Assembly: GCA_030532405.1 (NCBI GenBank)
Contig: JAUNLF010000005.1
Coordinates: forward strand, 62,001 to 126,000
Direction: 5' to 3'
DNA length: 64,000 bases
From: Actinomycetaceae bacterium
Lineage (GTDB): Bacteria > Actinomycetota > Actinomycetes > Actinomycetales > Actinomycetaceae
Positions 15,585 through 62,352 of this stretch are shown one piece after another. Position numbers and translations under genes: made by a program. The notes under the pieces were generated by a model. The model had not been told where the DNA came from, did not search any database, and worked only from the letters and a program-made list of their open reading frames with translations. Every line of letters starts with the position of its first letter. Position 1 is the first letter of the stretch.

Positions 15585-16019
15585 TTAGCAGGAGTAGCGG
15601 TAAACATTCGTGTTGCGTTTGTCGAAACCGACGCGCTGGTACAGGCGGTTCGCGGCCTCGCGGGACGGGCGTGACGTCAAGTCCACCGTGCACGTTCCAA
15701 GACTGTTCGCGTATTCGAGGGCGGCTTCGGTTAGCTTACGGCCAGCTCCCTGCCCGCGAGTTTCCTCCGAGACGACTACGTCCTCGATCCATGCCCGCGT
15801 ACCGGTGGGGATGTGGAAGATAACGAGGGTGAGCATGCCGAGAATATTGTTCGGATCATCATCGGGCGTGTAGACGAACAGGTGGACGTTCGGTTGAGAA
15901 ATGAAACGCTCGAGGCCCTCCGGTGTCATTGCGGATGCTGAGGATGAAAGTTGCGGGAGCAGACGGTTCACGGCCTCAAGTAGCTCCGGCGTTGCCTTGT
16001 CGATAGTCTGAACGGTCAT
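15585..16019 (-). CDS. GNAT N-acetyltransferase
   Basis: 144-residue single-domain acetyl-CoA-dependent transferase. The acetyl-CoA loop is visible as VVSEETRGQGAGRKLTEAAL (Q/RxxGxG/A), preceded by the beta strands LGMLTLVIFHIPTGTRAWIE and followed by the dinucleotide-like LTSRPSREAANRLYQRVGF typical of GCN5 enzymes. The acceptor is unknown. The stop is ten bases before the M18 peptidase ATG, so both are probably on one transcript. GGGGAA precedes the ATG. The 231 bp upstream (16020-16250), shared with thrC, contain no gene that I can support. Confidence 0.87.
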   Translation of the reverse strand: MTVQTIDKATPELLEAVNRLLPQLSSSASAMTPEGLERFISQPNVHLFVYTPDDDPNNILGMLTLVIFHIPTGTRAWIEDVVVSEETRGQGAGRKLTEAALEYANSLGTCTVDLTSRPSREAANRLYQRVGFDKRNTNVYRYSC

Positions 16020-16250
16020 TGTGTTCCCCTAACTGGACGGGTTGAAACTTACCCCCCATTGTAAAGTTTCGCGTCGACAAAATGGCCTCATGGCGCGCAC
16101 TATTCGCCGCGAAGCCACCCGGCGCGGTTGCGTCCGCGTGTCGGCGGCAAACCGCGAGAGCGGCGCCCTCATAACGCTTTGAATAAAAGTGCAGGCCACT
16201 AAGTTTGGAATGCACAATTAATCGGGGGTGGAACTTAGTAGGCTAAGCGC

Positions 16251-17696: not shown

Positions 17697-17703
17697 CGCT
17701 TTC

Positions 17704-42768: not shown

Positions 42769-43794
42769 GTGCCTATTGCAACCCCTGAGGTCTACAACGA
42801 AATGCTAGATCGCGCGAAGGAAGGTCGTTTCGCTTACCCCGCGATTAACGTCACCTCCTCGCAGACGCTCACCGCTGCTATCCGCGGTTTCGCGGAAGCG
42901 GAATCTGACGGCATCATCCAGGTTTCCGTTGGTGGCGCCGAGTACTGGTCTGGTTCCACGGTCAAGGACCGCGTTGCGGGATCCCTCGCGATGGCTGCTT
43001 ACGCCCGCGAGATCGCTAAGAACTACGACGTAAACGTTGCTCTGCACACCGACCACTGCGCAAAGCAGAACCTGGACTCCTGGGTTGTTCCGTTGATGGA
43101 ACTTGAGGTCGAAGAAGTAAACGCAGGCCGTCTGCCGTTCTTCCAGTCCCACATGTGGGACGGCTCCGCTGTTCCGTTGGAAGAGAACCTCGAGATCGCG
43201 CAGAAGATGCTCGACCTCGCTCAGAAGTCTCGCACCATCCTGGAAGTTGAGATCGGTGTTGTTGGCGGCGAGGAAGACGGCGTAGTTGGCGAGATCAACG
43301 AGAAGCTGTACACCACCACCGAAGATGGTCTAAAGACCGTTGAGGCCCTCGGCCTTGGCGAAAAGGGCCGCTACCTGACGGCTCTGACCTTCGGTAACGT
43401 ACACGGCGTTTACAAGCCGGGTCACGTCAAGCTCCGCCCCGAAATCCTGGGCACCATCCAGGAAGAAGTCGGCGCGAAGTACGACGCAGGCGACCGCCCG
43501 TTCGACCTGGTAATGCACGGTGGCTCCGGCTCCTCCGCCGAGGAAATCGCAACCGCTGTCGCAAACGGCGTCATCAAGATGAACGTCGACACCGACACCC
43601 AGTACGCCTTCACCCGTCCCGTCGCTGACTGGATGCTGAAGAAGTACGACGAGGTCCTCAAGATCGACGGTGAGGTCGGCGTCAAGAAGTCTTACGACCC
43701 GCGCTCGTGGGGCAAGGCTGCAGAAGCTGGCATGGCTGCCCGCGTAATCGAGGCATGTGAACGCCTCGGCTCCGTCGGCACCAAGATGAAGTAA
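42769..43794 (+). CDS. fba: Fructose-bisphosphate aldolase, class II
   Basis: Zinc-dependent glycolytic aldolase splitting fructose-1,6-bisphosphate. Metal and substrate residues are in VALHTDHCAKQNLDSW, in the VEIGVVGGEEDGV loop, FGNVHGVYKPGHVKL and MHGGSGSSAEEIATAV. The 341-residue length with the long insert is the class IIA (E. coli FbaA/actinobacterial) form, distinct from the shorter GatY-like enzyme at 46.1 kb. Codon use is strongly biased, as in highly expressed genes. GTG start behind AAGGAGG. Monocistronic with a GC-rich terminator. Confidence 0.96.
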   Translation: MPIATPEVYNEMLDRAKEGRFAYPAINVTSSQTLTAAIRGFAEAESDGIIQVSVGGAEYWSGSTVKDRVAGSLAMAAYAREIAKNYDVNVALHTDHCAKQNLDSWVVPLMELEVEEVNAGRLPFFQSHMWDGSAVPLEENLEIAQKMLDLAQKSRTILEVEIGVVGGEEDGVVGEINEKLYTTTEDGLKTVEALGLGEKGRYLTALTFGNVHGVYKPGHVKLRPEILGTIQEEVGAKYDAGDRPFDLVMHGGSGSSAEEIATAVANGVIKMNVDTDTQYAFTRPVADWMLKKYDEVLKIDGEVGVKKSYDPRSWGKAAEAGMAARVIEACERLGSVGTKMK

Positions 43795-46145: not shown

Positions 46146-46985
46146 CTAGCTTCGTGCGTAGAGCTTCAGCAGGCGAGCGACTTCGGCTTGAACGTGGTCG
46201 CGGCCGGGGCCCACGTACTTGCGCGGGTCAACGAGCTTGTCGTTGCCCGCGAGGATTTCGCGCACAACGCCGGTAAAGCCGACGTTGAGGTGGGTCGACA
46301 CGTTGATCTTCGTCATGCCCGCCTCGATTGCAGCGACCATGCCTTCGTCGGGCACGCCGGAGGAGCCGTGTAGCACGAGCGGAACGGGAACTGCGTCGCG
46401 AATGCGCGAGATCAGGTCGGTGTCGAGCACTGCGCCGCGGGTGGTCATTGCGTGCGACGAGCCGACTGCCACGGCGAGAAGATCAACGCCGGTGTCGGCT
46501 ACAAACTTCGCGGCGTCGTCCGGGTCGGTGCGGGCGGACGGGTCGTGTACGCCGTCTTTGCCGCCAACTTCGCCAAGTTCGGCTTCAACCGCGACGTTCG
46601 CCGCGTGGCAAAACTCGACTACGGCTGCGGTGCTCTCGCGGTTTGCCTGGTCTTCAAGTTTCGAGCCGTCGTACATAACCGAGTTGAAGCCGATGTCCAC
46701 GGCCGCCTTGCAAAGATCCACGCTCTCGGCGTGGTCGAGGTGTACGGCAACGGGTACCGACGCTTGCTCGGCGAGGGCGATCATAGCTTTGCCGATGGGG
46801 GCGATGTGGCCGCCGTGGTACTTGATCGCGTTTTCGGATAGCTGCAGGATGACGGGGCGGCCGACGCTTTCGGCTGCCGCGACCTCCGCGTGGGCAAACT
46901 CCAGTAGGACGACGTTAAATGCGCCTAGCCCCACCTTGTCGCGTGCGGCCTCAGCCGCCATTTCACGAATGTCTACTAGTGGCAT
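46146..46985 (-). CDS. gatY: Class II ketose-bisphosphate aldolase, tagatose-bisphosphate type
   Basis: 279-residue zinc aldolase of the short class IIB group that includes GatY/KbaY (tagatose-1,6-bisphosphate) and B. subtilis FbaA. The metal and substrate residues are in VAVHLDHAESVDLCKAA, EAELGEVGGKDGV, VAVGSSHA and LVLHGSSGVPDE. A separate full-length fba lies 2.4 kb away, and the neighbours are a PfkB kinase and an amino-sugar isomerase, so cleavage of tagatose-1,6-bisphosphate to DHAP and glyceraldehyde-3-phosphate is the likely role. Its ATG overlaps the kinase gene by ten bases. Last gene of the four-gene leftward operon. Confidence 0.85.
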   Translation of the reverse strand: MPLVDIREMAAEAARDKVGLGAFNVVLLEFAHAEVAAAESVGRPVILQLSENAIKYHGGHIAPIGKAMIALAEQASVPVAVHLDHAESVDLCKAAVDIGFNSVMYDGSKLEDQANRESTAAVVEFCHAANVAVEAELGEVGGKDGVHDPSARTDPDDAAKFVADTGVDLLAVAVGSSHAMTTRGAVLDTDLISRIRDAVPVPLVLHGSSGVPDEGMVAAIEAGMTKINVSTHLNVGFTGVVREILAGNDKLVDPRKYVGPGRDHVQAEVARLLKLYARS

Positions 46986-47932
46986 TCCATGTCCTTCACT
47001 TCAACTTCTTTCAACATTTCTTTAAACAGTTCGAGGTCGACCTCGCCGGCAACAGGCCTTGCAACTGCCGCGCCAGACAGTGCCACGGCCATCGGCAGGC
47101 CATCTTTTAAGTCTTTGGCAGTGAGCGTTGCGCTCGTGTGCTCGTCGATGAATGCACACCACGCGGCAACGGAGGCGTCTCCTGCTCCGGTGGGGTTGCC
47201 TTCGATGTAGCGAACGGGCTTGGCGTGGTAGGAGCCGTCGGGCCCGTGAATGCTCATGCCGTTTTCGCCCTCGGAGGTGATTACGATGCCAACACCTTGG
47301 GCGAGCAGGGCGGCCGCCCCTTCGCACACGTCGTCAAGCCCGGTCGTAGCCTTGAGCTCGAGGTCGTTGGGTTTCACAAAGTCTGCTCCGGCGGCGCATG
47401 CGCGAACGAGGTTTTCGCCAGTGGCATCCACGAGAATGCGGGCTCCGGCTTCGTGAACGGTGTCCACGATCCTCGTCATCCATTCGGGGCTGGAGTCGCC
47501 CGCGAAGGAGCCGCAGCTGGCGAGCAGGTCGCCCGGCTGGAGGCTTTCGCGTAGTAGCGTAAGGAGTTCCTCCCACGATTCGTCGCTTGGGGCCTCCCCG
47601 GATTCGTTGAGAACGGTTGCGGCGGAATCGTCCTCAACAACCGCGATACTCATGCGGGTTTGGCGGTCGAATTTAACGAACCTGCTTGAGATGAGCTTGG
47701 CCTCTGGAAGGCCGGCGAGCAGGTCGGAAAAGCGTTTGCCGTTTGCTCCGCCGAGGAATCCGGTGGCCGTGGATTCTTTACCGATTTGGGCGAGTACGCG
47801 CGACACGTTTACGCCCTTGCCGCCGGCGCGAACCTGCGAGTCCTCAATGCGGTGCGTGTTTCCAACGTTCAGTGTGGGTAGGTGGTAAGTAAAATCCAAT
47901 GCCGGGTTTGGGGTTAGAGTCCATACCGTCAT
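46976..47932 (-). CDS. PfkB-family hexose-phosphate kinase (tagatose-6-phosphate kinase candidate)
   Basis: 318-residue ATP-dependent sugar kinase of the LacC/FruK branch. N-terminal TLTPNPALDFTYHLPTL and RAGGKGVNVSRVLAQIG are the substrate side; GNPTGAGDASVAAW is the ATP/anion-hole motif with the catalytic Asp. LacC phosphorylates tagatose-6-phosphate and FruK fructose-1-phosphate; overlap with a tagatose-type aldolase gene and the adjacent amino-sugar genes favour tagatose-6-phosphate. TAGGAGG precedes the ATG, made by the stop of the ROK gene nine bases away. Confidence 0.87.
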   Translation of the reverse strand: MTVWTLTPNPALDFTYHLPTLNVGNTHRIEDSQVRAGGKGVNVSRVLAQIGKESTATGFLGGANGKRFSDLLAGLPEAKLISSRFVKFDRQTRMSIAVVEDDSAATVLNESGEAPSDESWEELLTLLRESLQPGDLLASCGSFAGDSSPEWMTRIVDTVHEAGARILVDATGENLVRACAAGADFVKPNDLELKATTGLDDVCEGAAALLAQGVGIVITSEGENGMSIHGPDGSYHAKPVRYIEGNPTGAGDASVAAWCAFIDEHTSATLTAKDLKDGLPMAVALSGAAVARPVAGEVDLELFKEMLKEVEVKDMECH

Positions 47933-47941
47933 GGTTTCCTC

Positions 47942-48859
47942 CTAGCGCTCAGCGCGAAATGCGCGCAGTCCAGCGCCTTTAAGTTGTGATTGTGAACCGA
48001 GTTTCGCCCCGATTACTTCCGGGGTTGGAACGATTCCGAGTGCCTCGTCGAGTTTTGTAGATAGCTCGTCGAACAGTTTTTGCCCGCGATTTGCAAGGCC
48101 GCCACCGATTACGATGGGCACTTTTCCAACCGCGGAAACAATGGGGGCGAGTGCCTCGGCGAGCTGTTTCATCGAGTAGTCCACGATCTGCGTTGCTTCG
48201 GGGGAGCCCGAATCGACCAGTTGGTACAGGCCCGCAGCGCCGTCGCATTCCTCGATAAGGCCGAGGCTCGCGCCGCGCCTGCAGATTGCGGAAGCCGAGG
48301 CTACCCGCTCGAGCGAAACCGGGTTGCCGTCCCAATCTGGAACAGTAATCTGGCCGAGCTCACCCGCCCAACCTGACACGGCAACGGGCATGCCGTTTAG
48401 GATCAGAACGCTTGCTATACCGGTTCCAATGGCAACGTAGAAGAAGTTCTCTAAGCCAACGCCCCAGTGCGCCTCTGCTAGAGCACCCGTTCGCACGTCG
48501 TGACCAAAAGCCACGGGCCGCCCACTCGCGTCGCTCAGCGCCTCCCGGGCTGGGAAATCTCTCCAGCCCAGGTTCGCGCTGAAAACAGCCATACCAAGGG
48601 ATTCATCGACGATACCCGGCACGTCGAAACCAACGGTGTCAATCACCTGGGAGGGCTGGATGGGGCCGTCGGCGCCAGCAACCTCGCCCTCAAGAATCAT
48701 CCGACCGTAATCGGAGATGATCCGTGCGCTACGCGTGATTAACGCGTCCGGACTCGCGGGCGTCGGGTACTGCCCGGGTTGCCACACTGCACCATCTGTG
48801 CCGACAACGCCGGCCTTAATAGTGGTTCCTCCAACGTCTAATGCGATCGCGTAGCGCAC
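47942..48859 (-). CDS. ROK-family sugar kinase (GalNAc kinase candidate)
   Basis: 305-residue cytoplasmic kinase with the ROK phosphate loop ALDVGGTTIKAGVV, the catalytic-Asp region GHDVRTGALAEAHWG and the second Gly loop VIVIGGGLANRG-like (PIVIGGGLANRGQKL). The ROK zinc site CxCGxxGCxE is absent: after GELGQITVPDWDGNPVSLE there are no Cys ligands, and the usual His of GxGHxxv is Gln. It therefore belongs to a divergent ROK branch. In context it is the best candidate for phosphorylating GalNAc released by the GH112 enzyme, in place of a PTS. GTG start behind AGGAG; six bases after the SIS gene. Confidence 0.8.
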   Translation of the reverse strand: MRYAIALDVGGTTIKAGVVGTDGAVWQPGQYPTPASPDALITRSARIISDYGRMILEGEVAGADGPIQPSQVIDTVGFDVPGIVDESLGMAVFSANLGWRDFPAREALSDASGRPVAFGHDVRTGALAEAHWGVGLENFFYVAIGTGIASVLILNGMPVAVSGWAGELGQITVPDWDGNPVSLERVASASAICRRGASLGLIEECDGAAGLYQLVDSGSPEATQIVDYSMKQLAEALAPIVSAVGKVPIVIGGGLANRGQKLFDELSTKLDEALGIVPTPEVIGAKLGSQSQLKGAGLRAFRAER

Positions 48860-48865
48860 GATGTT

Positions 48866-49750
48866 TTACTCCTCGTCCAGGATGACCGAACGCGTCAGGT
48901 GACGCGGCTTATCGGGGTCCAGGCCCTTCGCTTCGGCGCGGGCAACGGCCAAACGCTGGGCCACTACCAAGTCTGCCATCGGGTCTAGGTCAGAGGTGTG
49001 AACCTCGGCGCCCGTCGCATCGATTTGATCCGTGAGGCCGGTCGGGGCCTCGCCAAAGATCCAAACGAGGCGGCCGGGCTCTGCAATCGAGATGGGGCCG
49101 TGACGGTACTCCATTGCGGGGTAGGTTTCGGTCCAAGACTGGCTGGCCTCGCGGAGCTTCAAGCCGGCTTCGTTTGCCAGGCCGATCGTCCAACCGGTGC
49201 CAAGGAAGGTGATCTGGGATGCGTCAACCCAAGACTGCGGGATCTCGACCTCTAGGGCCTTCTTCGCATCTTCAACAGCCTTGTCAACGTCGTCGCCGAG
49301 CGTTGCGCGGAAGTAGGCGAGTGCGGACGTTGCGAAGCGGGTCTGAACGACCGACTCCTCATCCGCGAAGTCAAGGACGACCTCGAAGTCCGCGTACTGC
49401 GCTGCGGGGCCTTCACCAACAGCGGTGATCAGAACTGCGGGGCGGCCGGCCTCGTGCAGGACCTTCATAACGTCAATAATTTCGGAGGTCGTGCCCGAAC
49501 GTGACAGGCAGACAACTCGATCGTATTCGCGGTCCATCGGAAACTCGGTAGCGGTGAAGGCATCGGAAATGCCCTGGCCGCCAACTTCGCGCATCCTGGT
49601 GTATGCCTGCGCGATGAACCAAGAGGTTCCACAACCGATTACTGCAAGCGATTCCTCGTTACCTGCTAGCGGACCGGTCTTCTTTGCGACCTCAGCAGCC
49701 TTTGCCCAAACCTCGGGCTGCGACGCAATTTCAGAGCTCGTTTTGCTCAT
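48866..49750 (-). CDS. agaS: SIS-domain sugar-phosphate isomerase/deaminase (AgaS-like)
   Basis: 294-residue protein with two SIS domains. The first carries the sugar-phosphate loops VIGCGTSWFIAQAYTRM and LSRSGTTSEIIDVMK; the second TFLGTGWTIGLANEAGLKLR and MEYRHGPISI, as in AgaS, FrlB and the GlmS isomerase half. No glutaminase domain is present. In this operon deamination/isomerisation of galactosamine-6-phosphate to tagatose-6-phosphate is the natural role, by analogy with E. coli AgaS. The start at 49750 has GGAGGAAGG upstream; the longer frame from 49804 contains that site. First gene of the leftward operon. Confidence 0.82.
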   Translation of the reverse strand: MSKTSSEIASQPEVWAKAAEVAKKTGPLAGNEESLAVIGCGTSWFIAQAYTRMREVGGQGISDAFTATEFPMDREYDRVVCLSRSGTTSEIIDVMKVLHEAGRPAVLITAVGEGPAAQYADFEVVLDFADEESVVQTRFATSALAYFRATLGDDVDKAVEDAKKALEVEIPQSWVDASQITFLGTGWTIGLANEAGLKLREASQSWTETYPAMEYRHGPISIAEPGRLVWIFGEAPTGLTDQIDATGAEVHTSDLDPMADLVVAQRLAVARAEAKGLDPDKPRHLTRSVILDEE

Positions 49751-49969
49751 TTCGTTTACCTTCCTCCATTGGTCTGGTTGAACGTCGTTGATCAAGTGGC
49801 TCAAACTGCCAGACTTGATAAATCTTGATCACAACTACACTATACCAATCATTATTAATCGTGGTAGTCTATTTTGAAGTTGAGTCCTCAATCAAAGATG
49901 AACAAAGAGGTGTAACATGATTGCAATTAGATCAACCTTGCCCCTTCGTGGTGCTTGTTAAGAGGACTC
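49751..49969. promoter_or_regulatory. Divergent control region of the galacto-N-biose locus
   Basis: 219 bp between agaS and deoR. It holds repeated CTTGAT-type words (TTGATCAAG near 49790, and the direct pair CTTGATAAATCTTGAT at 49814-49829) and CAATCATTATTAATC (49847-49860 region). AATCATT and TTAATC recur before the binding-protein gene (53002-53080), so both may be operators of the DeoR protein. The exact promoters cannot be fixed. Confidence 0.5.
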
Positions 49970-50770
49970 ATGAACCGCCAAGAACGTCTTTCGCACCTAG
50001 CTGATCTCATTGTTGAGCGCGGATCTTTGCGCGTAGAAGAAGCTGTGGAGGAGCTCAAGGTCTCCCCGGCAACTGTGCGCCGAGACCTTGATGTACTTGC
50101 AGAACAGCAACTAATTGTCCGCACTCGTGGAGGCGCCAGCGCCAATGCGCAGTCGGGAGAGCTTCCCCTGCGCTACCGCGCAGTTACTCAACCGGAACAA
50201 AAGGCCGCGATCGCGCGAGCCGTGACCGAGTTGATTAAGCCCGGTGAAGTGATCGGTTTCAACGGTGGAACAACCACGACGCTCGCCGCGTACGAAGTGG
50301 GAGTTCGAGTCAGCGGGGATGATTCCTTCGCTGACGACGGCATCACGCTCGTTACGAACGCAATTAATATTGCGAATGACCTGGTAGTACGCCCGCGCGT
50401 CCGCGTGGTAGTCACCGGCGGGGTGGTGCGCGCTCGGTCTTATGAACTGATCGGCCCGCTATCCGACCTTTTGCTACCCAGCATCAGCGTGGACACCCTG
50501 TTCCTTGGCGTTAACGGTATTGACTTCTCAACCGGCATTTACGCTACGCACGAGGGCGAAGCAGCGGTTAATGCTGCGCTCGTCGCCTCGGCAAACCGCG
50601 TGATTGTCCTAGCTGATTCAACCAAACTGGGATCCACAGCATTCGCCAGGATCTCGCCGATTTCTGCGGTTTCAATGGTCATCACCGATGGGGATGCGAA
50701 CCCCGCCCACGTCCGCCAACTGGAGGCGCAGGGCATCGAAGTCATTAAAGCAACAAACTCCACAATCTAG
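49970..50770 (+). CDS. DeoR-family regulator of the galacto-N-biose locus
   Basis: 266-residue repressor: N-terminal DeoR helix-turn-helix (VEEAVEELKVSPATVRRDLD and QQLIVRTRGGAS) and a C-terminal sugar-phosphate-binding DeoRC domain (PGEVIGFNGGTTTTLAAYEV, VTGGVVRARSYELIGPL, FLGVNGIDFSTGIYA). Such proteins (AgaR, LacR, GatR) respond to phosphorylated intermediates, here perhaps tagatose- or galactosamine-6-phosphate. The start at 49970 has AGAGG five bases upstream; a TTG at 49955 lies before it and is rejected. It lies between the two divergent arms and 20 bases before the GH112 gene. Confidence 0.92.
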   Translation: MNRQERLSHLADLIVERGSLRVEEAVEELKVSPATVRRDLDVLAEQQLIVRTRGGASANAQSGELPLRYRAVTQPEQKAAIARAVTELIKPGEVIGFNGGTTTTLAAYEVGVRVSGDDSFADDGITLVTNAINIANDLVVRPRVRVVVTGGVVRARSYELIGPLSDLLLPSISVDTLFLGVNGIDFSTGIYATHEGEAAVNAALVASANRVIVLADSTKLGSTAFARISPISAVSMVITDGDANPAHVRQLEAQGIEVIKATNSTI

Positions 50771-50790
50771 CTCACTGCCAAGGAGTCTCA

Positions 50791-52944
50791 ATGGCCACTA
50801 AAGGTCGAGTAACCCTTCCAATTGAAGTTGGTATCGACGATCAAGTACGCGAACTTATGGAACGGCTCGGCGCCGACGCCGTCCGCAACTCGGATGGAAC
50901 CGAACTTCCTGAGCTCGTACACGAACTATCCGCAAAGGTTTATTCAACCTACTTCCCGGCGCGCGGCGACCAGGAGTGGGCCGTTGCGAATCCCGACACG
51001 GTGACAAACCTTTTCTTGCAATCAGTTCGCAAGCCCGCCCTCGAAAATGAACTAACAATCGACGTTATGGAAGGCTATCTGCCCGAACAGATCGAGCCCG
51101 AAACTAACGTGGATTTGGATCTGTACTGGGACGTTATCGACCGGACTACGGGGCAGTGGCACGCGGATTGGGAACTCGTTGATGATACGCACGTGCTTAT
51201 CAAGAACGCCGAGGTTGGCCACGTCTACACCGTGAACTTTTTGGCGCGCCAGATCTGGGACGCAACCCAGATGTACAACTACATCACGAACAACTGGGAC
51301 GACGATCCGACCCGGCACAAGGAGCGCCCGTACAACGTGGTGCTCCCGAAAGTGTGGAAGCGCGTAACCGAGCAGCTCGGCAGCTGGCTGTCCGAGCACG
51401 ACGAGGTCGACGTCGTACGTTTCACGACCTTCTTCTACCACTTCACACTCGTTTTCAACGAGCATCGCAAGGAAAAGTTTGTCGACTGGTTCGGCTACTC
51501 CGCGTCGGTATCGGTGCCCGCGCTGGAGGCGTTTGCGAAGGAGTACGGCTACGAACTGCGCGCCGAAGACTTTGTAGACCAGGGGTACTACAACTCTCCA
51601 TTCCGCCAACCCAGCGATCGGTTCCGCGACTGGATTGCTTTCCAACACAAGTTTGTAACCGGACGCGTTCGCGAACTCACAGACGCCGTTCACGCTGCCG
51701 GCAAGGAAGCCATGATGTTCCTTGGCGACAACTGGATTGGCGTTGAACCCTACGGCCCGCACTTTGAGGACGCAAACCTAGACGCCGTCGTAGGGTCCGT
51801 CGGGAATGCGGCCACGTGCCGCCTGATCGCCGATATTCCGCACGTAAAGTACACGGAAGGGCGCTTCTTGCCCTACTTCTTCCCGGACGTGTTCAACGAA
51901 AACGGAGACCCTGTCGGCGAGGCCAACACCTCCTGGCTGTCCGCCAGGCGCGCAATCGTGCGTTCCCCGCTGGACCGCATCGGTTATGGCGGCTACCTAT
52001 CCCTTGCGATCAAGTTCCCCGAGTTCGTTGATCGCATTGAGGAAATCTGCCAAGAATTCCGCGACATCTACAGTGCTGCGGACGGTAAGCGCCCGCAGGT
52101 CGCAACCCCGCGCGTAGGAATCGTCAACGCCTGGGGCAAGTTGCGCACCTGGCAGACTCACATGGTCGCACACGCCCTGCCGTACGAGCAGACGAACGCA
52201 TACGTCGGAGTCATCGAAGCGCTGGCAGGCCAAGGATTCGACGTCCAGTTCATTTCATTCGATGAAGTCCGCGAGGGCGCCCTCGACAATCTGGATGTAT
52301 TGATCAACGTGGGTGAAGCGGGAACTGCATTTTCTGGCGGTGACGTCTGGTTAGACCCGCAGCTACAGGTTGCTGTGCGCAAGTTTGTTGCTCAGGGCGG
52401 CGGAATTATCGGCGTGGGAGAGCCTTGCGCTGTTTCCGCGAACGGAGCGTACAACCAGTTGAGCGATATTTTTGGAATTGATCAGGAGCAGTCATGGTCG
52501 CTTTCGACTGATCGATATCCGAACAATGCTGATGAGCACTTCATCCTGGGGGAAAAAGATGCTCTTGACGTAAATTTGACCGGCGGATCGCGCTACTGGG
52601 TTCCCGTGAGCGACGACGTGCAGGTCCTGCGAGCGAATGGGACCTCCGTGGAGCTCGCCGTCAAGCAGTACGGTGCTGGACGGGCAATCTACATTTCTGG
52701 GCTGCCGTACTCGCAGGACAACAACAAACTGCTTGAACGTTCCATATTCTGGGCATCTTCAAAGGAAAGTGAGTATGAGAATTCAACTCACTGCGAGGAT
52801 CCGAGGATCGAAATTGCCACCTATGATTCGGGTGCAATCTTCGCTTACAACTCGTCTTTCGATCGCGTTACGGCGACGATTTTGAACTGTAATGGTGAGG
52901 AAAAACGGGTGGACCTGGAGCCCCTGGGTAGCATCTGGCTTTAA
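50791..52944 (+). CDS. lnbP: GH112 galacto-N-biose/lacto-N-biose phosphorylase
   Basis: Cytoplasmic inverting phosphorylase that cleaves beta-1,3-galactosyl-N-acetylhexosamines with phosphate, giving alpha-Gal-1-phosphate and GalNAc or GlcNAc. The 717-residue sequence is unmistakably GH112: SNSDGTELPELVHEL-like N-terminus (VRNSDGTELPELVHEL), FLGDNWIGVEPYGPHFEDAN containing the general acid at Asp313 (same number as in the Bifidobacterium longum enzyme), DAVVGSVGNAATCRLIADIP and VKYTEGRFLPYFFPDVF. Preference for GalNAc or GlcNAc cannot be read off directly. AAGGAG precedes the ATG. Joined with deoR upstream and an ABC importer downstream, it defines the locus. Strong terminator follows. Confidence 0.95.
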   Translation: MATKGRVTLPIEVGIDDQVRELMERLGADAVRNSDGTELPELVHELSAKVYSTYFPARGDQEWAVANPDTVTNLFLQSVRKPALENELTIDVMEGYLPEQIEPETNVDLDLYWDVIDRTTGQWHADWELVDDTHVLIKNAEVGHVYTVNFLARQIWDATQMYNYITNNWDDDPTRHKERPYNVVLPKVWKRVTEQLGSWLSEHDEVDVVRFTTFFYHFTLVFNEHRKEKFVDWFGYSASVSVPALEAFAKEYGYELRAEDFVDQGYYNSPFRQPSDRFRDWIAFQHKFVTGRVRELTDAVHAAGKEAMMFLGDNWIGVEPYGPHFEDANLDAVVGSVGNAATCRLIADIPHVKYTEGRFLPYFFPDVFNENGDPVGEANTSWLSARRAIVRSPLDRIGYGGYLSLAIKFPEFVDRIEEICQEFRDIYSAADGKRPQVATPRVGIVNAWGKLRTWQTHMVAHALPYEQTNAYVGVIEALAGQGFDVQFISFDEVREGALDNLDVLINVGEAGTAFSGGDVWLDPQLQVAVRKFVAQGGGIIGVGEPCAVSANGAYNQLSDIFGIDQEQSWSLSTDRYPNNADEHFILGEKDALDVNLTGGSRYWVPVSDDVQVLRANGTSVELAVKQYGAGRAIYISGLPYSQDNNKLLERSIFWASSKESEYENSTHCEDPRIEIATYDSGAIFAYNSSFDRVTATILNCNGEEKRVDLEPLGSIWL

Positions 52945-52950
52945 CCTCTC

Positions 52951-52996
52951 TTAGTAACGGTGCGGGAAAATCATGAATATCCCGCACCGTTACTAA
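52951..52996 (+). terminator. Intrinsic terminator after the phosphorylase gene
   Basis: Perfect 17-bp stem TTAGTAACGGTGCGGGA/TCCCGCACCGTTACTAA with a 12-base loop, six bases past the lnbP stop; separates it from the binding-protein gene, which has its own upstream region. Confidence 0.85.
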
Positions 52997-53001
52997 ATTG
53001 T

Positions 53002-53080
53002 AATCAATCATTCATCTAAGGGGTAGAAACTATCGAAAGTGCGCGCTAAGCTATAGAAGTAATCAGAATTAATCATTCTG
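53002..53080. promoter_or_regulatory. Putative operator/promoter region of the sugar importer
   Basis: AATCAATCATT (53002-53012) and a palindrome CAGAAT-TAATC-ATTCTG (53064-53080). AATCATT and TTAATC are shared with the agaS-deoR control region, suggesting one regulator. GAGGGAGAGG just before the ATG at 53104 is the ribosome-binding site. Confidence 0.5.
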
Positions 53081-53103
53081 AACTCGAGGGAGAGGTTTTA
53101 TTC

Positions 53104-54438
53104 ATGGCACGTACAACCGGCTACAGGAAAGCCGCCGCATTGTTCGCAGCTGTTTCGGTCGCATCGTTGGGCCTAGCAGCCTGCTCCTCCGGTGGGGAAG
53201 AGCCCGCACCGGAGTCGGATGCTACCGCCGAGGCTCCGGCAGAGGCTGTTACCATCCAGTACCTGCACCGCCTGCCTGACGGTGAGGGCATGGTTCCGGT
53301 TGCAGAGATCGTCGACCGTTGGAACGCTGAGCACCCGGAGATTCAGGTTGAGGCCACCAAGTTTGATGGTGCTTCGGCCGAGATGATCAAGAAGCTTGAG
53401 ACCGACGTTAAGGCTAACAACGCACCGTGCTTGGCTCAGATCGGTTACGGCGAGGTTCCCGAAGTATTCTCTAAGGGCCTAGTTGAAGACGTTGCGGCTG
53501 AAGCTGAGAAGTACAAGGACAACTACTCTGGTGCTTACGGCCAGATGCAGGTTGGCGACGCTGTTGTAGGCCTGCCGCAGGATACTGGCCCGCTCGTATA
53601 CTTCTACGACGAGGCCGCATTTGCTGATCTTGGCATTGAGGTTCCGACCACGGTTGATGAGCTGAAGGAAGCCGCAAAGGCTGCTGCGGAGCAGGGCAAG
53701 TACATCCTAGACTTCGAGCCCGACGAGGCTCAGTACATGCTGTCCGCGCTTTCCGCTGCTGCTGGTGACACCTGGTACGCCGCTGAGAACGACGCGTGGA
53801 AGGTAACCACCACCGGTGATGGCGCATCGCTTGTTGCTGATTTCTGGCAGGAAATGATCGATTCGGGCGCGGCTCTAACCCACGAGCGTTGGGGTGAGGC
53901 TTACGCTAACGCGCTTGCTTCCGGTGAGCTGGTCGGCAACATTGGCCCGGCTTGGGAAGCTGGCTTCATGCTTGACGGCGTTGTTCCCGAGGGCGAAGAG
54001 GGCACCTGGAAGGTTGCGCTTCTGCCCGAGTTCGGTAACGGCCAGATGACCGGCCCGGACGGTGGTTCCGGCGTTGCAGTTATGAAGGGCTGTGAGTACC
54101 CGGCCGAGGCAATGCAGTTCAACGACTGGTTCAACACTCAGACCGAGGATCTTGCTACGCAGGGTCTAGTTGTTGCAGCACTTGGCGATGTTGTTACCCC
54201 CGAGAAGGTCAAGATGCAGTTCGGTGGCCAGGACGTATTCGCAGAGCTTGCAAAGGCTAACGAGACTCTTAACCCGAACTTCGGTTACATTCCGGGCTTC
54301 TCCGCTGTTGGTGCCAAGATGAACGAGGTTGCTGGCAACGTTGTTGCTGGTGAGGGCAAGGTCATGGACATCTTCACGGCAGCTCAGGACGAGTCGGTTA
54401 AGACTTTGAAGGATCTGAACCTTCCGGTTGCTGAATAA
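53104..54438 (+). CDS. Sugar ABC transporter substrate-binding lipoprotein
   Basis: 444-residue family 1 solute-binding protein with signal peptide and lipobox LAAC (Cys27), then a Glu/Ala-rich linker and the periplasmic-type fold (IQYLHRLPDGEGMVPVAEIV, VVGLPQDTGPLVYFYDEAAF). Size matches the galacto-N-biose/lacto-N-biose-binding protein of Bifidobacterium. It lies between the GH112 gene and two permease genes, so galacto-N-biose or a related disaccharide is the inferred ligand. Codon use is biased as for abundant proteins. A hairpin after the stop probably keeps its level above that of the permeases. Confidence 0.9.
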   Translation: MARTTGYRKAAALFAAVSVASLGLAACSSGGEEPAPESDATAEAPAEAVTIQYLHRLPDGEGMVPVAEIVDRWNAEHPEIQVEATKFDGASAEMIKKLETDVKANNAPCLAQIGYGEVPEVFSKGLVEDVAAEAEKYKDNYSGAYGQMQVGDAVVGLPQDTGPLVYFYDEAAFADLGIEVPTTVDELKEAAKAAAEQGKYILDFEPDEAQYMLSALSAAAGDTWYAAENDAWKVTTTGDGASLVADFWQEMIDSGAALTHERWGEAYANALASGELVGNIGPAWEAGFMLDGVVPEGEEGTWKVALLPEFGNGQMTGPDGGSGVAVMKGCEYPAEAMQFNDWFNTQTEDLATQGLVVAALGDVVTPEKVKMQFGGQDVFAELAKANETLNPNFGYIPGFSAVGAKMNEVAGNVVAGEGKVMDIFTAAQDESVKTLKDLNLPVAE

Positions 54439-54471
54439 TAGGCAGCTGAGTCCGATCGAGAGATAACTACG

Positions 54472-54505
54472 ATGGGGGCATCCACCGCAGGGAGGATGCC
54501 CCCAT
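54472..54505 (+). terminator. Partial terminator between binding protein and permeases
   Basis: Perfect 12-bp stem ATGGGGGCATCC/GGATGCCCCCAT with a 10-base loop, followed by TCTTC rather than a clean T tract. Such hairpins commonly attenuate downstream permease genes and stabilise the binding-protein mRNA. Confidence 0.75.
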
Positions 54506-54561
54506 TCTTCACAACAGATCCCTGTAACCCCCATTAGTAACCTGGAAACGATAGGTGAATC

Positions 54562-55539
54562 GTGTCTTCTGCAAATCCTGCTACCGTCGTAGCGCGTCAG
54601 GCAGTGGAGCCGGCGAAGCGACGCAAGAGGAATAGGACCAGAGAGCTTCACGATGCGCGCACGGGCTGGGCATTCATGGCCCCATTCGCGATTGCGTTCA
54701 TCCTGGTTTTTCTTATTCCAATCTTTCTTTCGCTGTACTCGTCGTTCTTTAAAGAGGTTTCCGAGGGCGGAGGCCTGTATGGTGGCGGCGAGGTAAGCAA
54801 ACAGTTCGTCGGTTTTGAAAACTACGCGTACGTTGTCCAGTCGGGTGCTTTCTGGAAGGGCATTTTGCGCGTGCTTGGTTACACCGCGGTGCAAGTGCCG
54901 TTAATGATCCTGCTGGCACTGGTATTGGCGTTGGTGTTGGATTCTTACTTGACCAGGCACGTGACCGCTTACCGGCTGGGTTACTTCCTTCCTTTCGCTA
55001 TTCCGGGCATCGTGGCTGCGATGATCTGGTTGTACTTGTACACTCCTGAGATTTCGCCGATTGTGCAGACGCTGCAAAGTTGGGGTCTGGATGTTAACTT
55101 CATGGGGCGCTACACGATCTTGGCGTCCATGGCGAACATGACGACCTGGACGTACACGGGTTACAACATGCTCATCTTCCTTGCGGCCTTGCAGGCTATT
55201 CCACACGAGCTGGAAGAAGCGGCTCGCATTGATGGTGCGACCGGATTCCAGATTGTCACCAAGATCAAGGTGCCGATGGTTCGCGGCGCTGCACTGCTGG
55301 CCGTCCTCCTGTCGATTGTTGGCACTATTCAGTTGTTCAACGAGCCGACGGTTATGGCTACGGCTAACTCGTGGATGGGTAAGGACTACACGCCAATGAT
55401 GATGGCGTACAACTCGATGATGGGAACGATCTCGCCTTCCGGTGATGGTCCCGCATCCGCAGTCTCGATTGTGATGGCTTTGATTGCGGGCATCCTGGCC
55501 GTGTTGTACGCGTTCGTTGATCGGAGGTTGAGCAAGTAA
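54562..55539 (+). CDS. Sugar ABC transporter permease (MalF/LacF-like)
   Basis: 325-residue inner-membrane subunit with six hydrophobic segments after a basic cytoplasmic lead (PAKRRKRNRTRELHD). The EAA loop that docks the ATPase is HELEEAARIDGATGFQIVTK. GTG start. Its stop shares one base with the next permease ATG (TAATG). No ATPase gene is in the locus, so a shared MsiK/MalK-type ATPase encoded elsewhere must energise it, as is common in actinobacteria. Confidence 0.92.
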   Translation: MSSANPATVVARQAVEPAKRRKRNRTRELHDARTGWAFMAPFAIAFILVFLIPIFLSLYSSFFKEVSEGGGLYGGGEVSKQFVGFENYAYVVQSGAFWKGILRVLGYTAVQVPLMILLALVLALVLDSYLTRHVTAYRLGYFLPFAIPGIVAAMIWLYLYTPEISPIVQTLQSWGLDVNFMGRYTILASMANMTTWTYTGYNMLIFLAALQAIPHELEEAARIDGATGFQIVTKIKVPMVRGAALLAVLLSIVGTIQLFNEPTVMATANSWMGKDYTPMMMAYNSMMGTISPSGDGPASAVSIVMALIAGILAVLYAFVDRRLSK

Positions 55540-56447
55540 TGGCGATCAAAACGAAGAAGCTTCCTGACGGTCGTGAGTACACTCCGTCGGTTGAAGGCCA
55601 GCCGATGCGTTCGATCGCACCGTCCTCGGCAGCGCGGTGGATTACAACCGGTGTGCTGCTACTGGCTCTGGTTTACTTCCTCTTCCCGGTTTACTGGGTG
55701 ATTGTTGCGTCCACGAAGACGAACTTCCAACTGGCATCCACTAACGGGTTCTTGTTTGACGAAGTTAATCTGGACGCTAACTACACGGCTTTGATGACGT
55801 GGACGAAGGGCATGTTCTGGCGGTGGGTTGGAAACTCGCTGCTGTACTCGACGGTTGCGGGCGTTGTTGGCACCCTGATTTCCGTCATGGCGGGCTACGC
55901 GATGGCTAAGTTCAAGTTCCCCGGTAAGGGTGTCGCGATGGGCGTCATCATGTCGGGCCTGCTGTTGCCGATTGCTCTGCTGACGATTCCGATGTACCTG
56001 ATGTTTTACAAGATCGGCCTCACGAACACTATGTGGGCGATTATTATCCCGTCGTGTGTTTCGCCGTTCGGTGTGTTCTTGGGTCGCGTTTACGCGCAGA
56101 CTTCAGTGCCGATTGAACTGATCGAGGCGGCTCGCATTGATGGGGCGGGGGAGGCGCGCATCTTCTTTACGATGGTGCTGCGACTGCTCGCGCCGGCTAT
56201 GGTGACGATCTTCCTGTTTATCTTCGTGATGACGTGGAACAACTTCCTGCTGCCGTTGATGATGGTTTCTTCCGACTCGATCAAACCGGTGACGCTCGGC
56301 TTGTACGGCATGATGAGTTACTTCGCGCCGGACAAGGGCGCGGTCATGCTTGGTGCTCTGCTCGGCGTTGTTCCGCTAATCATCCTGTTCCTCGGCCTAC
56401 AGAAGTACTGGCAGTCCGGCCTCGCCGCCGGTGCGGTCAAGGGATAA
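55539..56447 (+). CDS. Sugar ABC transporter permease (MalG/LacG-like)
   Basis: 302-residue partner permease. The N-terminal cytoplasmic part is followed by six hydrophobic segments, and the EAA loop reads IELIEAARIDGAGEARIFFT; the ending LQKYWQSGLAAGAVKG is the standard MalG-type C-terminus. Translationally coupled to the preceding permease. With the binding protein it forms the importer assigned to galacto-N-biose/lacto-N-biose on context. Strong terminator follows. Confidence 0.92.
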   Translation: MAIKTKKLPDGREYTPSVEGQPMRSIAPSSAARWITTGVLLLALVYFLFPVYWVIVASTKTNFQLASTNGFLFDEVNLDANYTALMTWTKGMFWRWVGNSLLYSTVAGVVGTLISVMAGYAMAKFKFPGKGVAMGVIMSGLLLPIALLTIPMYLMFYKIGLTNTMWAIIIPSCVSPFGVFLGRVYAQTSVPIELIEAARIDGAGEARIFFTMVLRLLAPAMVTIFLFIFVMTWNNFLLPLMMVSSDSIKPVTLGLYGMMSYFAPDKGAVMLGALLGVVPLIILFLGLQKYWQSGLAAGAVKG

Positions 56448-56630: not shown

Positions 56631-56647
56631 CGGTAGGGGTGGTCGTA

Positions 56648-57979
56648 ATGTTGCGTTCATTCACGGTTTCTAACTGGAAGTCGTACTACGAGCCTGCTGA
56701 GTTTTCCATGGTCGCCACCCGCGAGCGCCGTCATGGCGAACGTCTAACAAGAGTTCGACGATCACGGATCCTCCCCGTGTCTGCCATTTATGGTGCTAAT
56801 GCGGCAGGTAAATCTACGCTTATAGAGGCTTTGGTGGCCTTGCGCACCTTAATTATCGATGCCCGCAGGGTCGGATCTCTCCTGCCTGTTATGCCGCATT
56901 TGCCCGAGGGCAAGCATGAACCTTCTAAGTTTTATGTTGAATTCTTAACCGAACTCGAAGGCGATGGATTATCAACCAAGGAGGCAATTCTTACGTACGA
57001 GCTAGCAGCGGATCGTCGCCGCATCTACTACGAGGCTCTCCTGATTCGCCGCGGGGACCGTGAGGATTTCCTGTTTGAGCGCGAAGGCTCGAACGTCCAG
57101 CTAGATGAACCGCTCTTGGGAGATAAACGAACAGAGCTTCACTCTGAACTGATCTCCGACAACGAAACACTGCTCGGTGCATTAGGACCAGATCCTGAAG
57201 TCGCAAACCCACATGTGAAGGCTGCATATAACTGGTTTGCAAGGCAGCTAAATGTCATTTACCCAGATTCTCGAGCAATCTATCTACCCGCACAATTCGC
57301 GACGGACGACCTGTTCGCTGACGCCGTGAATACAGGGCTTACGCGTGCCGATACAGGGATTTCTGGTCTCCAGTTGCAAGATATGAGGGTCGAATCCTTG
57401 CCTCTGGAGCCTGACGAGATTGACTTCTTACTGAATGAGCTCTCCTCAAGGGGCGGTATTTTCGTGATCGGTGGAGGTGTGGGGGACTACGCTCTCCTCG
57501 ACCTGCACAAAGAGGAGCTTCGTGCGCGACGGCTTGTTGCTACCCATTCAACGGTAGCAGGCCCGGGTGAGGTGTCCGAGGAGTTCTTACTTCCTCTTCG
57601 CGAAGAATCTGAGGGCACTCAGAGGTTCATGAATCTTTTGCCTGCGTTATTCCAACTACGTAAAGCCGACTCACGTGCAGTTTTCCTCATTGATGAGCTT
57701 GAGCATTCGATGCATCCGAAGTTGACTGAGGAGTTTATTCGAACGTTTTTGGACGATCTCGATGGTTCGAACCGTAGGCAGTTGATATTTACTACGCACG
57801 AGATTCAGCTCATGCGTTCGGATCTTTTGCGTCGTGACGAGATCTGGCTGGTAGATAAGGTGGATGGACAGTCCGAGCTGACGCGTGTTTCGGATTTTTC
57901 TGACATTGGAGTTCGAAAAGACGCGGATTTAATGTCTTTCTACATGTCTGGTCGTCTTGGCGGGGTCCCCCGAATATAG
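56648..57979 (+). CDS. AAA-family ATPase, RloA/AAA_15-like (defence candidate)
   Basis: 443-residue ABC/SMC-type ATPase of the AAA_15/AAA_21 group. The opening LRSFTVSNWKSYYEPAEFSM is the family's first strand; Walker A is YGANAAGKSTL, Walker B AVFLIDELEHSMHP, and the switch IFTTHEIQLMRSDLL. Between them lies a long charged insert without motif. Paired with the RloB-like gene 10 bases after its stop, it resembles two-gene abortive-infection modules such as RloAB or the AAA_15/TOPRIM pairs of PARIS. ATG 56648 is chosen over GTG 56639, which overlaps the AGGGG ribosome-binding site. The region is AT-richer than the sugar genes, consistent with horizontal acquisition. Confidence 0.87.
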   Translation: MLRSFTVSNWKSYYEPAEFSMVATRERRHGERLTRVRRSRILPVSAIYGANAAGKSTLIEALVALRTLIIDARRVGSLLPVMPHLPEGKHEPSKFYVEFLTELEGDGLSTKEAILTYELAADRRRIYYEALLIRRGDREDFLFEREGSNVQLDEPLLGDKRTELHSELISDNETLLGALGPDPEVANPHVKAAYNWFARQLNVIYPDSRAIYLPAQFATDDLFADAVNTGLTRADTGISGLQLQDMRVESLPLEPDEIDFLLNELSSRGGIFVIGGGVGDYALLDLHKEELRARRLVATHSTVAGPGEVSEEFLLPLREESEGTQRFMNLLPALFQLRKADSRAVFLIDELEHSMHPKLTEEFIRTFLDDLDGSNRRQLIFTTHEIQLMRSDLLRRDEIWLVDKVDGQSELTRVSDFSDIGVRKDADLMSFYMSGRLGGVPRI

Positions 57980-57989
57980 GAGGCTTGTC

Positions 57990-58655
57990 GTGTCTGCAAA
58001 GAAACGTTCACGTAAACCGCGCAGTAGACGATCCGCCGCTGTAGGCTTTCGCGTACCTCGCGAGCCAGTTTATCTCTGTGCTGAAGGCCAAACGGAGATT
58101 CAGTACGTGCGTGCCTTGTTTGAATACCGTTACCCGGGTTTGTTCACGCTAAGCATCATAAGAACTCGTGGGAAACGTGCCGGTGGTAAAACGTCTTTGC
58201 TGAACCTTATCGAAGTCGCACGCAAAGAATCGAAGACTTGGGCCCGTCGTGAGAAATCTAGTAGGGATATCTGGATCATCTGTGACTTGGATGAGAATGC
58301 TCATCACAGAGAAGCCTTAGAGAAGTGGTTGAACGAGAGTCCCAACACTCATCATGCTGTAATCCAAGCTGCATCTATAGAAGCATGGTTTCTTTCACAC
58401 TTCGATAATCCGCAGAGGCCTAGAGGCAACAGAGAGGCGGAGGAACTATTAGCGAAACAATGGAAAAACTATAGGAAAGGCGCAGAGATTCCAAGGGGCC
58501 TTATAGATAGGACAGACGAAGCGGTCTCGCGAGAGCTTAACGCCATGAATAATGCGGAGTCGCAATGGCCTTTCCCTCCGCCTGGATGCTCGCAGATGCC
58601 AGATTTTATTGAATACTTAGATGAGCGCGCTTCGAAGCTAGGGGGACAACACTAA
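57990..58655 (+). CDS. RloB-like protein (TOPRIM-type nuclease candidate)
   Basis: 221-residue protein. After a very basic N-terminus (SAKKRSRKPRSRRSAAV) comes the RloB signature VYLCAEGQTEIQYVRALFE, whose Glu pair corresponds to the TOPRIM metal Glu, then DIWIICDLDENAHHREAL with the D-x-D(E) metal acidic triplet, and IEAWFLSHFDNP. These are the positions of TOPRIM-fold OLD-type nucleases, so it is probably the effector nuclease controlled by the upstream ATPase. GTG 57990 is preferred because AGGAGG lies six bases before it, overlapping the ATPase stop. The family's biochemical activity is not established to my knowledge. Confidence 0.82.
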   Translation: MSAKKRSRKPRSRRSAAVGFRVPREPVYLCAEGQTEIQYVRALFEYRYPGLFTLSIIRTRGKRAGGKTSLLNLIEVARKESKTWARREKSSRDIWIICDLDENAHHREALEKWLNESPNTHHAVIQAASIEAWFLSHFDNPQRPRGNREAEELLAKQWKNYRKGAEIPRGLIDRTDEAVSRELNAMNNAESQWPFPPPGCSQMPDFIEYLDERASKLGGQH

Positions 58656-61312: not shown

Positions 61313-61332
61313 GATCTGCCTTTCGAGAACCG

Positions 61333-62343
61333 CTAGAACGAGAATCTCGGAGTGCGTTCCACGAGGTTAATGGGAAGTACTACGGGCTCGCCGTTCCAAG
61401 TGCCTGTTAGGCGAGACTCGAGGAGTTTCGTTGCTTCGTACGCTAGTTGGTCGGTTGAGTTTGTGATTGAGCTGAGGGAGAGTTCCTCAGCGATTGGTGA
61501 GTTGTCGAAACTTACGATTGGGATAGGTCCAAGTGCGGCTCCCGCTTCTTTGAATGCGTCGAAAATGCCTTGTGCCATGAGGTCTGAGCTTGAGAAGATC
61601 CCGTCTACTTCGCCAACCTCCAGGCGGCTGACGAGCCTCTTTCCCGCTTCGTATCCGGAGGCGTAGGTGAATGCCCCAGGCTCTACTATGGAGTCGATAT
61701 TTTCGGACTCCAACTCGTTGAGGAAGCCCTGAAGTCGATCTTTACCAGCGATCATGTCGGCTGGTCCAGCAACCACAGCCGGACGTGCACACCCTTGATT
61801 TAACAAGTGGCGGGCAGCGAGTTGTCCCCCGGCGTAGTTATTTGAATCAACCCACGCGGAGGTGTCTTCTTCGATACGACCAATGAATACCGTAGGCACA
61901 GAGGCTTTCAGCAGTCGTTCGATCTCTCCGGTGTACCTGTGATGAGAAAGAACGATCGCACCATCGACTGCGCCGGAGCTGAGGAAAGACTCTGTGCGTT
62001 CGGACTGCTCCTTAGTCGAGAAGAACACGAGAACTGCTTGGCTCCCCACTTTCCCTAACTCAGACGATAGGGACTGGACAGACCTAGCGAAGAACGGGTC
62101 GGAGAAAACTCTGCTATCAGGTTCTGGAATTACCACGGCGGTGACGCCGGACCTATTGGTCACGAGGGCGCGAGCGGCTGAGTTTGGGCGATATCCAAGC
62201 TCAGCTACGGCACTCTTTACGGCTTTAACCTTCTTGGGAGACACTCTTTGGTCGCCGCGAATAACGCGAGAAGCGGTTGCTCTGGATACGCGCGCGCGTG
62301 CGGCTACATCTTCTAGCGTTACTCTTTTAGTTTTCACAGACAT
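61333..62343 (-). CDS. LacI-family transcriptional regulator
   Basis: 336-residue repressor: N-terminal helix-turn-helix (TLEDVAARARVSRATASRVI, with the hinge VAELGYRPNSAARAL) and a periplasmic-binding-protein-like sugar domain (VTAVVIPEPDSRVFSDPFFA, GVDGIFSSSDLMAQG-like GEVDGIFSSSDLMAQGIFDA, PIVSFDNSPIAEELSLSSI). It presumably senses the sugar imported by the adjacent permeases and controls this operon. Located nine bases after the second permease gene and 20 bases before GH3, all on the minus strand. Confidence 0.93.
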   Translation of the reverse strand: MSVKTKRVTLEDVAARARVSRATASRVIRGDQRVSPKKVKAVKSAVAELGYRPNSAARALVTNRSGVTAVVIPEPDSRVFSDPFFARSVQSLSSELGKVGSQAVLVFFSTKEQSERTESFLSSGAVDGAIVLSHHRYTGEIERLLKASVPTVFIGRIEEDTSAWVDSNNYAGGQLAARHLLNQGCARPAVVAGPADMIAGKDRLQGFLNELESENIDSIVEPGAFTYASGYEAGKRLVSRLEVGEVDGIFSSSDLMAQGIFDAFKEAGAALGPIPIVSFDNSPIAEELSLSSITNSTDQLAYEATKLLESRLTGTWNGEPVVLPINLVERTPRFSF

Positions 62344-62352
62344 CTTGGCTTC

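Follow-up and report, generated by a model that had tools for sequence, protein, structure and literature searches.

The closest described systems handle either disaccharides of N-acetylhexosamines or N-acetylgalactosamine (GalNAc) itself. The Bifidobacterium pathway for lacto-N-biose and galacto-N-biose consists of a GH112 phosphorylase, NahK, GalT and GalE, and phosphorolysis follows import by an ATP-binding cassette (ABC) transporter; growth of Roseburia on galacto-N-biose with GH112 has also been described (PMC7335108; here and below, PMC numbers stand for excerpts of the cited articles). Enterobacteria use the aga genes (AgaPTS, AgaA, AgaS, KbaYZ) with import by a phosphotransferase system (PTS), and Lacticaseibacillus has a gnb operon that combines PTS import (GnbPTS) with an intracellular glycosyl hydrolase (GnbG) and, in the excerpted text, no phosphorylase (PMC5583593). 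The same survey uses AgaS as its signature gene for GalNAc utilisation and assigns LnbABC-LnbP, found in Actinobacteria among others, to a GalNAc pathway with agaS and agaA among its genes. In Shewanella, a permease and a GalNAc kinase (AgaP-AgaK) replace the PTS ahead of the common steps to tagatose-6-phosphate (PMC12118421). Here, we analyse a locus of an Actinomycetaceae bacterium at positions 46146-56447 of a stretch of 64,000 nucleotides (the window; contig C18:62001-126000 of genome G000, 2.23 Mb in 33 contigs, 99.7% complete), in which GH112 and an ABC importer are joined to genes for a SIS protein, a ROK kinase, a PfkB kinase and a class II aldolase.

The locus shares GH112 and a sugar importer with the Bifidobacterium pathway, and galT is present elsewhere in the window genome, but we found no NahK match in that genome at E <= 1e-30, and thus no sign of the competing NahK route that an earlier note on this DNA had considered. 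The query was an APH-family NahK-like protein from sister locus L053, named from its APH domain and its place beside GH112 and galT and not from a NahK-specific model. Instead, GalNAc would be phosphorylated at C6 by the ROK kinase and enter tagatose-6-phosphate. From GalNAc-6-phosphate (GalNAc-6-P) on, the proposed intermediates are those of the enterobacterial aga system, whose AgaY (PDB 1gvf) the window aldolase resembles over its length; the differences are PTS import, AgaS in place of the SIS protein and a KbaZ-type partner in place of PfkB. Shewanella likewise does without a PTS, although it takes up GalNAc itself and not a phosphorolysed disaccharide, and the window SIS is no AgaS by model score.

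Drawing on comparative genomics, we infer that the locus likely serves galacto-N-biose import, GH112 phosphorolysis and breakdown of GalNAc via tagatose-6-phosphate. GH101 would free galacto-N-biose from mucin-type O-glycans, the ABC importer would bring it in, probably together with lacto-N-biose, and GH112 would split the disaccharide into galactose-1-phosphate (Gal-1-P) and GalNAc (or N-acetylglucosamine, GlcNAc). The ROK kinase would convert GalNAc to GalNAc-6-P, a NagA encoded elsewhere would deacetylate it, and the SIS protein would deaminate and isomerise the product to tagatose-6-phosphate, which PfkB would phosphorylate and the class II aldolase cleave to triose phosphates. Gal-1-P would pass to a GalT encoded elsewhere, and the DeoR protein probably controls both arms. 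Gene content, linkage and the presence of the genes named are observed; each substrate specificity, the regulation and the standing of the SIS protein as a third family are proposed.

To place the locus, we surveyed 213 genomes of the Actinomycetaceae, 92 of which carry a GH112 match (6 below the family cut-off); across 396 genomes spread over the phylum, GH112 was matched in the window's own genome only. The window-type SIS (E <= 1e-40) is present in 54, NahK (E <= 1e-30) in 20 and AgaS (E <= 1e-50) in 4 of the family genomes, and no two of them ever co-occur. Among the GH112 carriers, 43 have SIS, 19 NahK, 4 AgaS and 26 none of these (SIS/NahK exclusivity: Fisher P = 8.6e-7, uncorrected for kinship). 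Kinship cannot explain all of this exclusivity because SIS and NahK alternate within two genera. In genus g244, G468, G469 and G471 have SIS while G470 and G472 have NahK, and in genus g263 the GH112 carriers have SIS except for G545, whose NahK lies 171 bases from GH112. The Bifidobacterium type of pathway also occurs in the window's family: among the 19 GH112 carriers with NahK, the two genes are at most 1 kb apart in 12, and galT follows NahK in many of these.

We show that what accompanies GH112 differs among the 49 family carriers that lack SIS. ROK and aldolase genes (at least 36% and 55% identity, respectively) stand beside GH112 in all four AgaS genomes, in none of the 19 NahK genomes and in none of the 26 others, with GH112 near a contig end in at least 3 of these 45. 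An earlier count over 76 stretches that contain GH112 and no SIS, many from outside the family and covering 9 of the 49 family carriers, found the pair in the same four only. In these four genomes (G444, G477, G478, G479), AgaS lies away from GH112 and adjoins a GatZ/KbaZ-like gene of 613-619 bits (L170-L173), and no PfkB gene was seen beside GH112. Published descriptions of KbaZ/AgaZ make it either a tagatose-6-phosphate kinase or a subunit of an aldolase (PMC12118421, PMC4694137). AgaS and KbaZ thus take the place that SIS and PfkB have in the window. This displacement, seen in four genomes of two genera, is the strongest evidence for the function of the SIS protein and for a tagatose-6-phosphate intermediate, and it lends comparative support to the route that the earlier note had proposed from GalNAc through the ROK kinase, galactosamine-6-phosphate (GalN-6-P) and tagatose-6-phosphate to triose phosphates. 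G476, which shares its genus with three AgaS genomes, has neither SIS nor AgaS, and of the genes known from the locus it retains just DeoR and GH112 in the stretch read.

We noticed that 15 of the 26 carriers with none of SIS, NahK and AgaS (e.g., L178-L183) encode a GHMP kinase (galactokinase-like) and a nucleotidyltransferase close to GH112. As this pair also occurs with the SIS module, in L055/L073 (Winkia neuii) and L156, it was not counted as an exclusive alternative; it possibly represents a GalT-free Gal-1-P route or a HexNAc kinase. In G480 and G581, GH112 is split over two adjacent frames, probably through gene degradation or sequencing errors.

By sequence and by fold, the SIS protein is closest to GlmD-type and other glucosamine-6-phosphate (GlcN-6-P) deaminases, yet it scores well below the models of its possible namesakes: GlmD (NF041128) 87.8 bits against a cut-off of 580, NagB-II (NF046059) 35.7 against 430, and AgaS 26.8 against 529.2. 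The AgaS proteins of the four sister genomes reach 450-458 bits on the last of these, under the cut-off as well, though much higher than the window SIS. The match to GlmS (TIGR01135; 73.2 of 418 bits) covers the isomerase part only. Compared with GlmD and NagB-II, the SIS protein has an invariant Arg (R305) at a position that is Lys in the printed GlmD-type and TM0813 alignments, and its genomic context is that of GalNAc. It is probably, as judged from these comparisons, a third galactosamine-6-phosphate deaminase/isomerase, non-orthologous to AgaS and AgaI. We rejected a reading as a NagS-like GlcNAc-6-phosphate dehydratase because the whole length of the protein aligns with the GlmS/GlmD type and because this activity is reported, in the excerpted text, solely for Streptomycetaceae (PMC12680351).

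The other enzymes of the minus arm are recognisable at the level of their families. The aldolase passes the general model TIGR00167 (233.8 bits, cut-off 215.6) and stays under the cut-offs of the fructose- and tagatose-specific equivalogs, the tagatose-bisphosphate aldolase model TIGR01858 giving 203 bits against 443.55. PfkB likewise passes the hexose-kinase model TIGR03168 (233 bits, cut-off 216.4) and falls short of the LacC model TIGR01231 (106.5 of 409.55), and its PDB neighbours are fructose-1-phosphate and tagatose-6-phosphate kinases. The predicted fold of the ROK protein is nearest to N-acetylmannosamine kinase; its residue D121, which we take to be the catalytic Asp, is invariant in 11 sequences.

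Taken with the exchange among sister genomes, it appears likely that the SIS protein founds a third non-orthologous family of GalN-6-P deaminases/isomerases and forms, with a ROK GalNAc 6-kinase, an exchangeable GH112 module, such that SIS with ROK, AgaS with KbaZ and ROK, and NahK would have replaced one another even within genera. Among the papers that searches of the open-licence PMC literature brought up, most of them judged from their listing (subscription papers lay outside the scope), we recognised no description of GH112 joined to a SIS-ROK-PfkB-aldolase module or of a GlmD-like GalN-6-P deaminase. The earlier note knew of no description of the combination, the parts of which prove more familiar than it supposed. 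As far as searched, this SIS type and its exchange with NahK and AgaS within the family are new, whereas PTS-free GalNAc kinase routes and LnbP feeding an AgaS/AgaA pathway had already been proposed in print, and the supplementary tables of the GalNAc survey (PMC5583593) may include some of the genomes analysed here. If the SIS protein does the work of AgaS, the AgaS criterion would see 4 of the 213 family genomes and miss 54.

The genes of the module keep together beyond the window. Within 6 kb of SIS in 36 non-duplicate loci, ROK is found in 33, aldolase in 31, PfkB in 27, DeoR in 25 and GH112 in 19, and NagA, NahK, GalT and GalK in none. The window is not among these loci, several of which were picked for being without GH112, and some duplication may remain after removal of L058, L071, L073, L075, L077 and L124; L070 and L074 were also left out, as they cover GH112 in G520 and G524, whose SIS genes lie elsewhere (L148, L149). 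Of the 43 family genomes with both SIS and GH112, 34 have the two genes at most 5 kb apart. The SIS-ROK-PfkB-aldolase-DeoR grouping thus exceeds chance, given these neighbour counts and the proximity of SIS to GH112. Among the best 80 named loci, 9 have SIS, and the title of each names Actinomyces, Schaalia, Winkia, Mobiluncus or Buchananella; the Bacillota loci show NahK or other neighbours.

The steps absent from the locus have candidates elsewhere in the genome, as the earlier note had anticipated in placing the deacetylase and the Gal-1-P branch outside it and in calling for a search for nagA and galT, genes of both types being present. A NagA-like deacetylase of 398 amino acids is encoded on contig C8 (L001:1345-2541); it reaches 196.9 bits on TIGR00221 against a cut-off of 225.65, this being its best family by far. 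NagA-like genes are found in 198 of the 213 family genomes, so their presence does not discriminate. It is reasonable to suppose that one NagA may serve this GalNAc route as well, because S. coelicolor NagA accepts GalNAc-6-P (kcat/Km 1.03e4, compared with 1.01e5 for GlcNAc-6-phosphate; PMC12680351) and NagA can replace AgaA in E. coli (PMC12118421). GalT is encoded on contig C4 (TIGR00209, 155.9 bits, cut-off 102.1), directly followed by GalK (TIGR00131, 284.5 bits, cut-off 226.65).

The window genome also encodes a GH101 protein (372.7 bits, frame of 1563 amino acids), a member of the endo-alpha-N-acetylgalactosaminidase family (PMC5583593), and such enzymes release galacto-N-biose from peptides (PMC7674204). 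GH101 occurs in 43 of the 213 family genomes, and every one of these also has a GH112 match (Fisher P = 1.5e-19, overstated because genomes are taken as independent). The two genes share a contig in 19 of the 43 and lie 6-11 kb apart in 4. Characterised O-glycanases are known from Actinomyces, Schaalia and Trueperella (PMC11861894), and the locus suggests a likely fate for the core-1 disaccharide that they free; neither 'GH112' nor 'galacto-N-biose' appears in the main text of that article as available. Sister locus L041 has a sulfatase (16968-18377), a sulfatase maturase (15709-16971) and an alpha-L-fucosidase (1281-2732) nearby, and L043, from the same genus, a sulfatase maturase (L043:16372-17646, the sole one of these tested there), pointing to sulfated, fucosylated host glycans. 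In the GH112-less genome of L146, a more distant SIS module (SIS 46% identical) has a GH123 gene about 5 kb off; GH123 enzymes are beta-N-acetylgalactosaminidases.

The kinship of the SIS protein with GlcN-6-P deaminases would also suit a lacto-N-biose locus, in which the ROK protein would be a GlcNAc kinase, the SIS protein a NagB-II-like GlcN-6-P deaminase and PfkB and aldolase would act on fructose phosphates, the more so as some GH112 enzymes act on either disaccharide and favour neither clearly (PMC8950772). However, the genome already has a NagB-type gene (PF01182, 173 bits) and a second PF01116 aldolase at 42769-43794, 2.4 kb from the locus and probably the housekeeping fructose-bisphosphate aldolase, so the SIS and aldolase of the locus are extra to the usual GlcNAc and glycolysis enzymes and a GlcNAc/fructose role for them would be redundant. 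Moreover, SIS is replaced in sister genomes by GalNAc/tagatose enzymes, namely AgaS and a KbaZ-like protein, and GH101 and the GH123 gene point to GalNAc as well. We consider the GlcNAc version unlikely. A general galactosamine/tagatose (or galactose-6-phosphate) module, loosely tied to GH112 and with a ROK kinase for some other sugar, would account for the 11 of 54 SIS genomes that lack GH112, where the module stands beside other genes, including other ABC transporter parts, and galactose is another possible source of tagatose-6-phosphate. Against such a loose tie speak the 43 genomes with both SIS and GH112 and their frequent proximity, and against another sugar the constancy and N-acetylmannosamine kinase-like fold of ROK; we hold this general-module reading to be quite improbable.

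A biosynthetic role, in which the SIS protein would be an ammonia-using glucosamine-6-phosphate synthase in place of GlmS, is suggested by the fold that it has in common with GlmS isomerase domains and by the distribution of GlmS (TIGR01135), which is present in 188 of the 213 genomes and undetected in the window genome and 7 others of its genus. However, at least 38 of the 54 SIS genomes have GlmS and 9 of the 20 listed GlmS-less genomes (25 in all) are also without SIS (G508, G435, G461, G462, G476, G478, G479, G534, G580). SIS also heads a catabolic-looking arm opposite DeoR, and we regard synthesis as extremely unlikely. The GlmS-less bacteria of the window's genus may rely on amino sugars from the host or on NagB working in reverse. 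We thus retain the galacto-N-biose pathway via tagatose-6-phosphate as the preferred interpretation.

All nine genes that the earlier note had read as two divergent arms around DeoR were confirmed by Pfam and NCBIfam, with only weak NCBIfam matches for the binding protein (Table 1).

Table 1 Features of the galacto-N-biose locus (positions in the window).
Feature	Position	Strand	Evidence
Class II ketose-bisphosphate aldolase, proposed tagatose-1,6-bisphosphate aldolase	46146..46985	-	PF01116 290 bits
PfkB-family kinase, 1-PFK/LacC type, proposed tagatose-6-phosphate kinase	46976..47932	-	PF00294 119 bits
ROK-family sugar kinase, proposed GalNAc 6-kinase	47942..48859	-	PF00480 105.1 bits
SIS protein, 294 amino acids, proposed galactosamine-6-phosphate deaminase/isomerase	48866..49750	-	PF01380 52.6 bits
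Candidate DeoR operator CAATCATTATTAATCG in divergent region	49846..49861	+	Pattern from 8 near relatives including the window
DeoR-type regulator	49955..50770	+	PF08220 (helix-turn-helix) 61.8 bits, PF00455 (sensor domain) 135.8 bits
GH112 beta-1,3-galactosyl-N-acetylhexosamine phosphorylase	50791..52944	+	TIGR02336 857.2 bits, cut-off 560.3
Second candidate operator, directly before binding-protein gene	53060..53075	+	One mismatch to pattern
Lipoprotein-like solute-binding protein of ABC importer	53104..54438	+	Position ahead of two permeases
ABC permease 1	54562..55539	+	PF00528 53.2 bits
ABC permease 2	55539..56447	+	PF00528 59.3 bits

On the minus arm the order is SIS, ROK, PfkB, aldolase, where neighbouring genes are separated by 6 and 9 bases or, once, overlap by 10; on the plus arm it is DeoR, GH112 (20 bases between them), binding protein and two permeases. 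The SIS frame is open up to a TTG at 49804, and the true start is most likely the ATG at 49750, because GGAGG precedes it and most relatives align from there. GH112 has both expected domains, Lact_bio_phlase and LBP_M (PF09508 606.9 bits, PF17385 261.8 bits), and is similar to the lacto-N-biose phosphorylase chains 2zus/3wfz over nearly its full length; its nearest relatives among the best 80 named loci are from an Actinomyces sp. metagenome-assembled genome (L056, 87%) and Schaalia canis (L057, 70%), names that place the window genome in the Actinomyces/Schaalia group. The binding protein has no Pfam match at 1e-3 and matches sugar-binding models weakly (GanS, 30.7 of 700 bits). No importer ATPase was found among the open reading frames seen at the locus; actinobacterial sugar importers often have one ATPase in common. 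The DeoR protein reaches 161.3 of 260 bits on the AgaR model and is thus no AgaR equivalog. By eye, hairpin-like inverted repeats lie 3' of the aldolase, GH112, binding-protein and permease 2 genes.

The site CAATCANNWWHNATCR in the divergent region recurs with one mismatch ahead of the binding-protein gene. Across 21 divergent regions (one duplicate pair), the pattern is exact in 8, by construction, and has one mismatch in L044, L127 and L156; among 25 regions before the binding protein (some duplicates), the match is exact in 2, has one mismatch in 2 and two to four in the others, the exact ones including L057 and those with one mismatch being L056 and the window. By itself the pattern is weak, as the window has 2 matches with at most one mismatch against 0.92 expected and 24 of 100 shuffles reach 2. 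The 7-mer TCAATCA occurs in 12 of the 21 divergent regions, compared with a largest shuffle value of 6. We regard both sites as candidate DeoR operators, on evidence that is suggestive only.

In GH112-less genomes, a GFO/IDH/MocA oxidoreductase-like gene lies directly before SIS in L140 (7966-9198) and L141 (6780-8633). We rejected the L140 protein as a glycosidase of that fold, its PDB neighbours being dehydrogenases and the like, and the large open reading frames that flank the module in L138 and L149 are RNA polymerase subunits. No Pfam family was found for the module-side frames L145:3909-6521 (870 amino acids), L147:4179-6920 (913 amino acids) and L140:3794-5314; those of L145 and L147 are possibly unrecognised GalNAc-releasing enzymes, or no genes at all. 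In the window itself, an AAA_21 ATPase and an RloB-like gene follow directly behind the importer (56639-58655, plus strand; PADLOC AbiLi 248.7 and AbiLii 52.1 bits), which makes them a candidate phage-defence pair. Next to the locus, a second sugar operon on the minus strand (58925-63282) comprises genes for a GH3 enzyme, a LacI regulator and an ABC permease.

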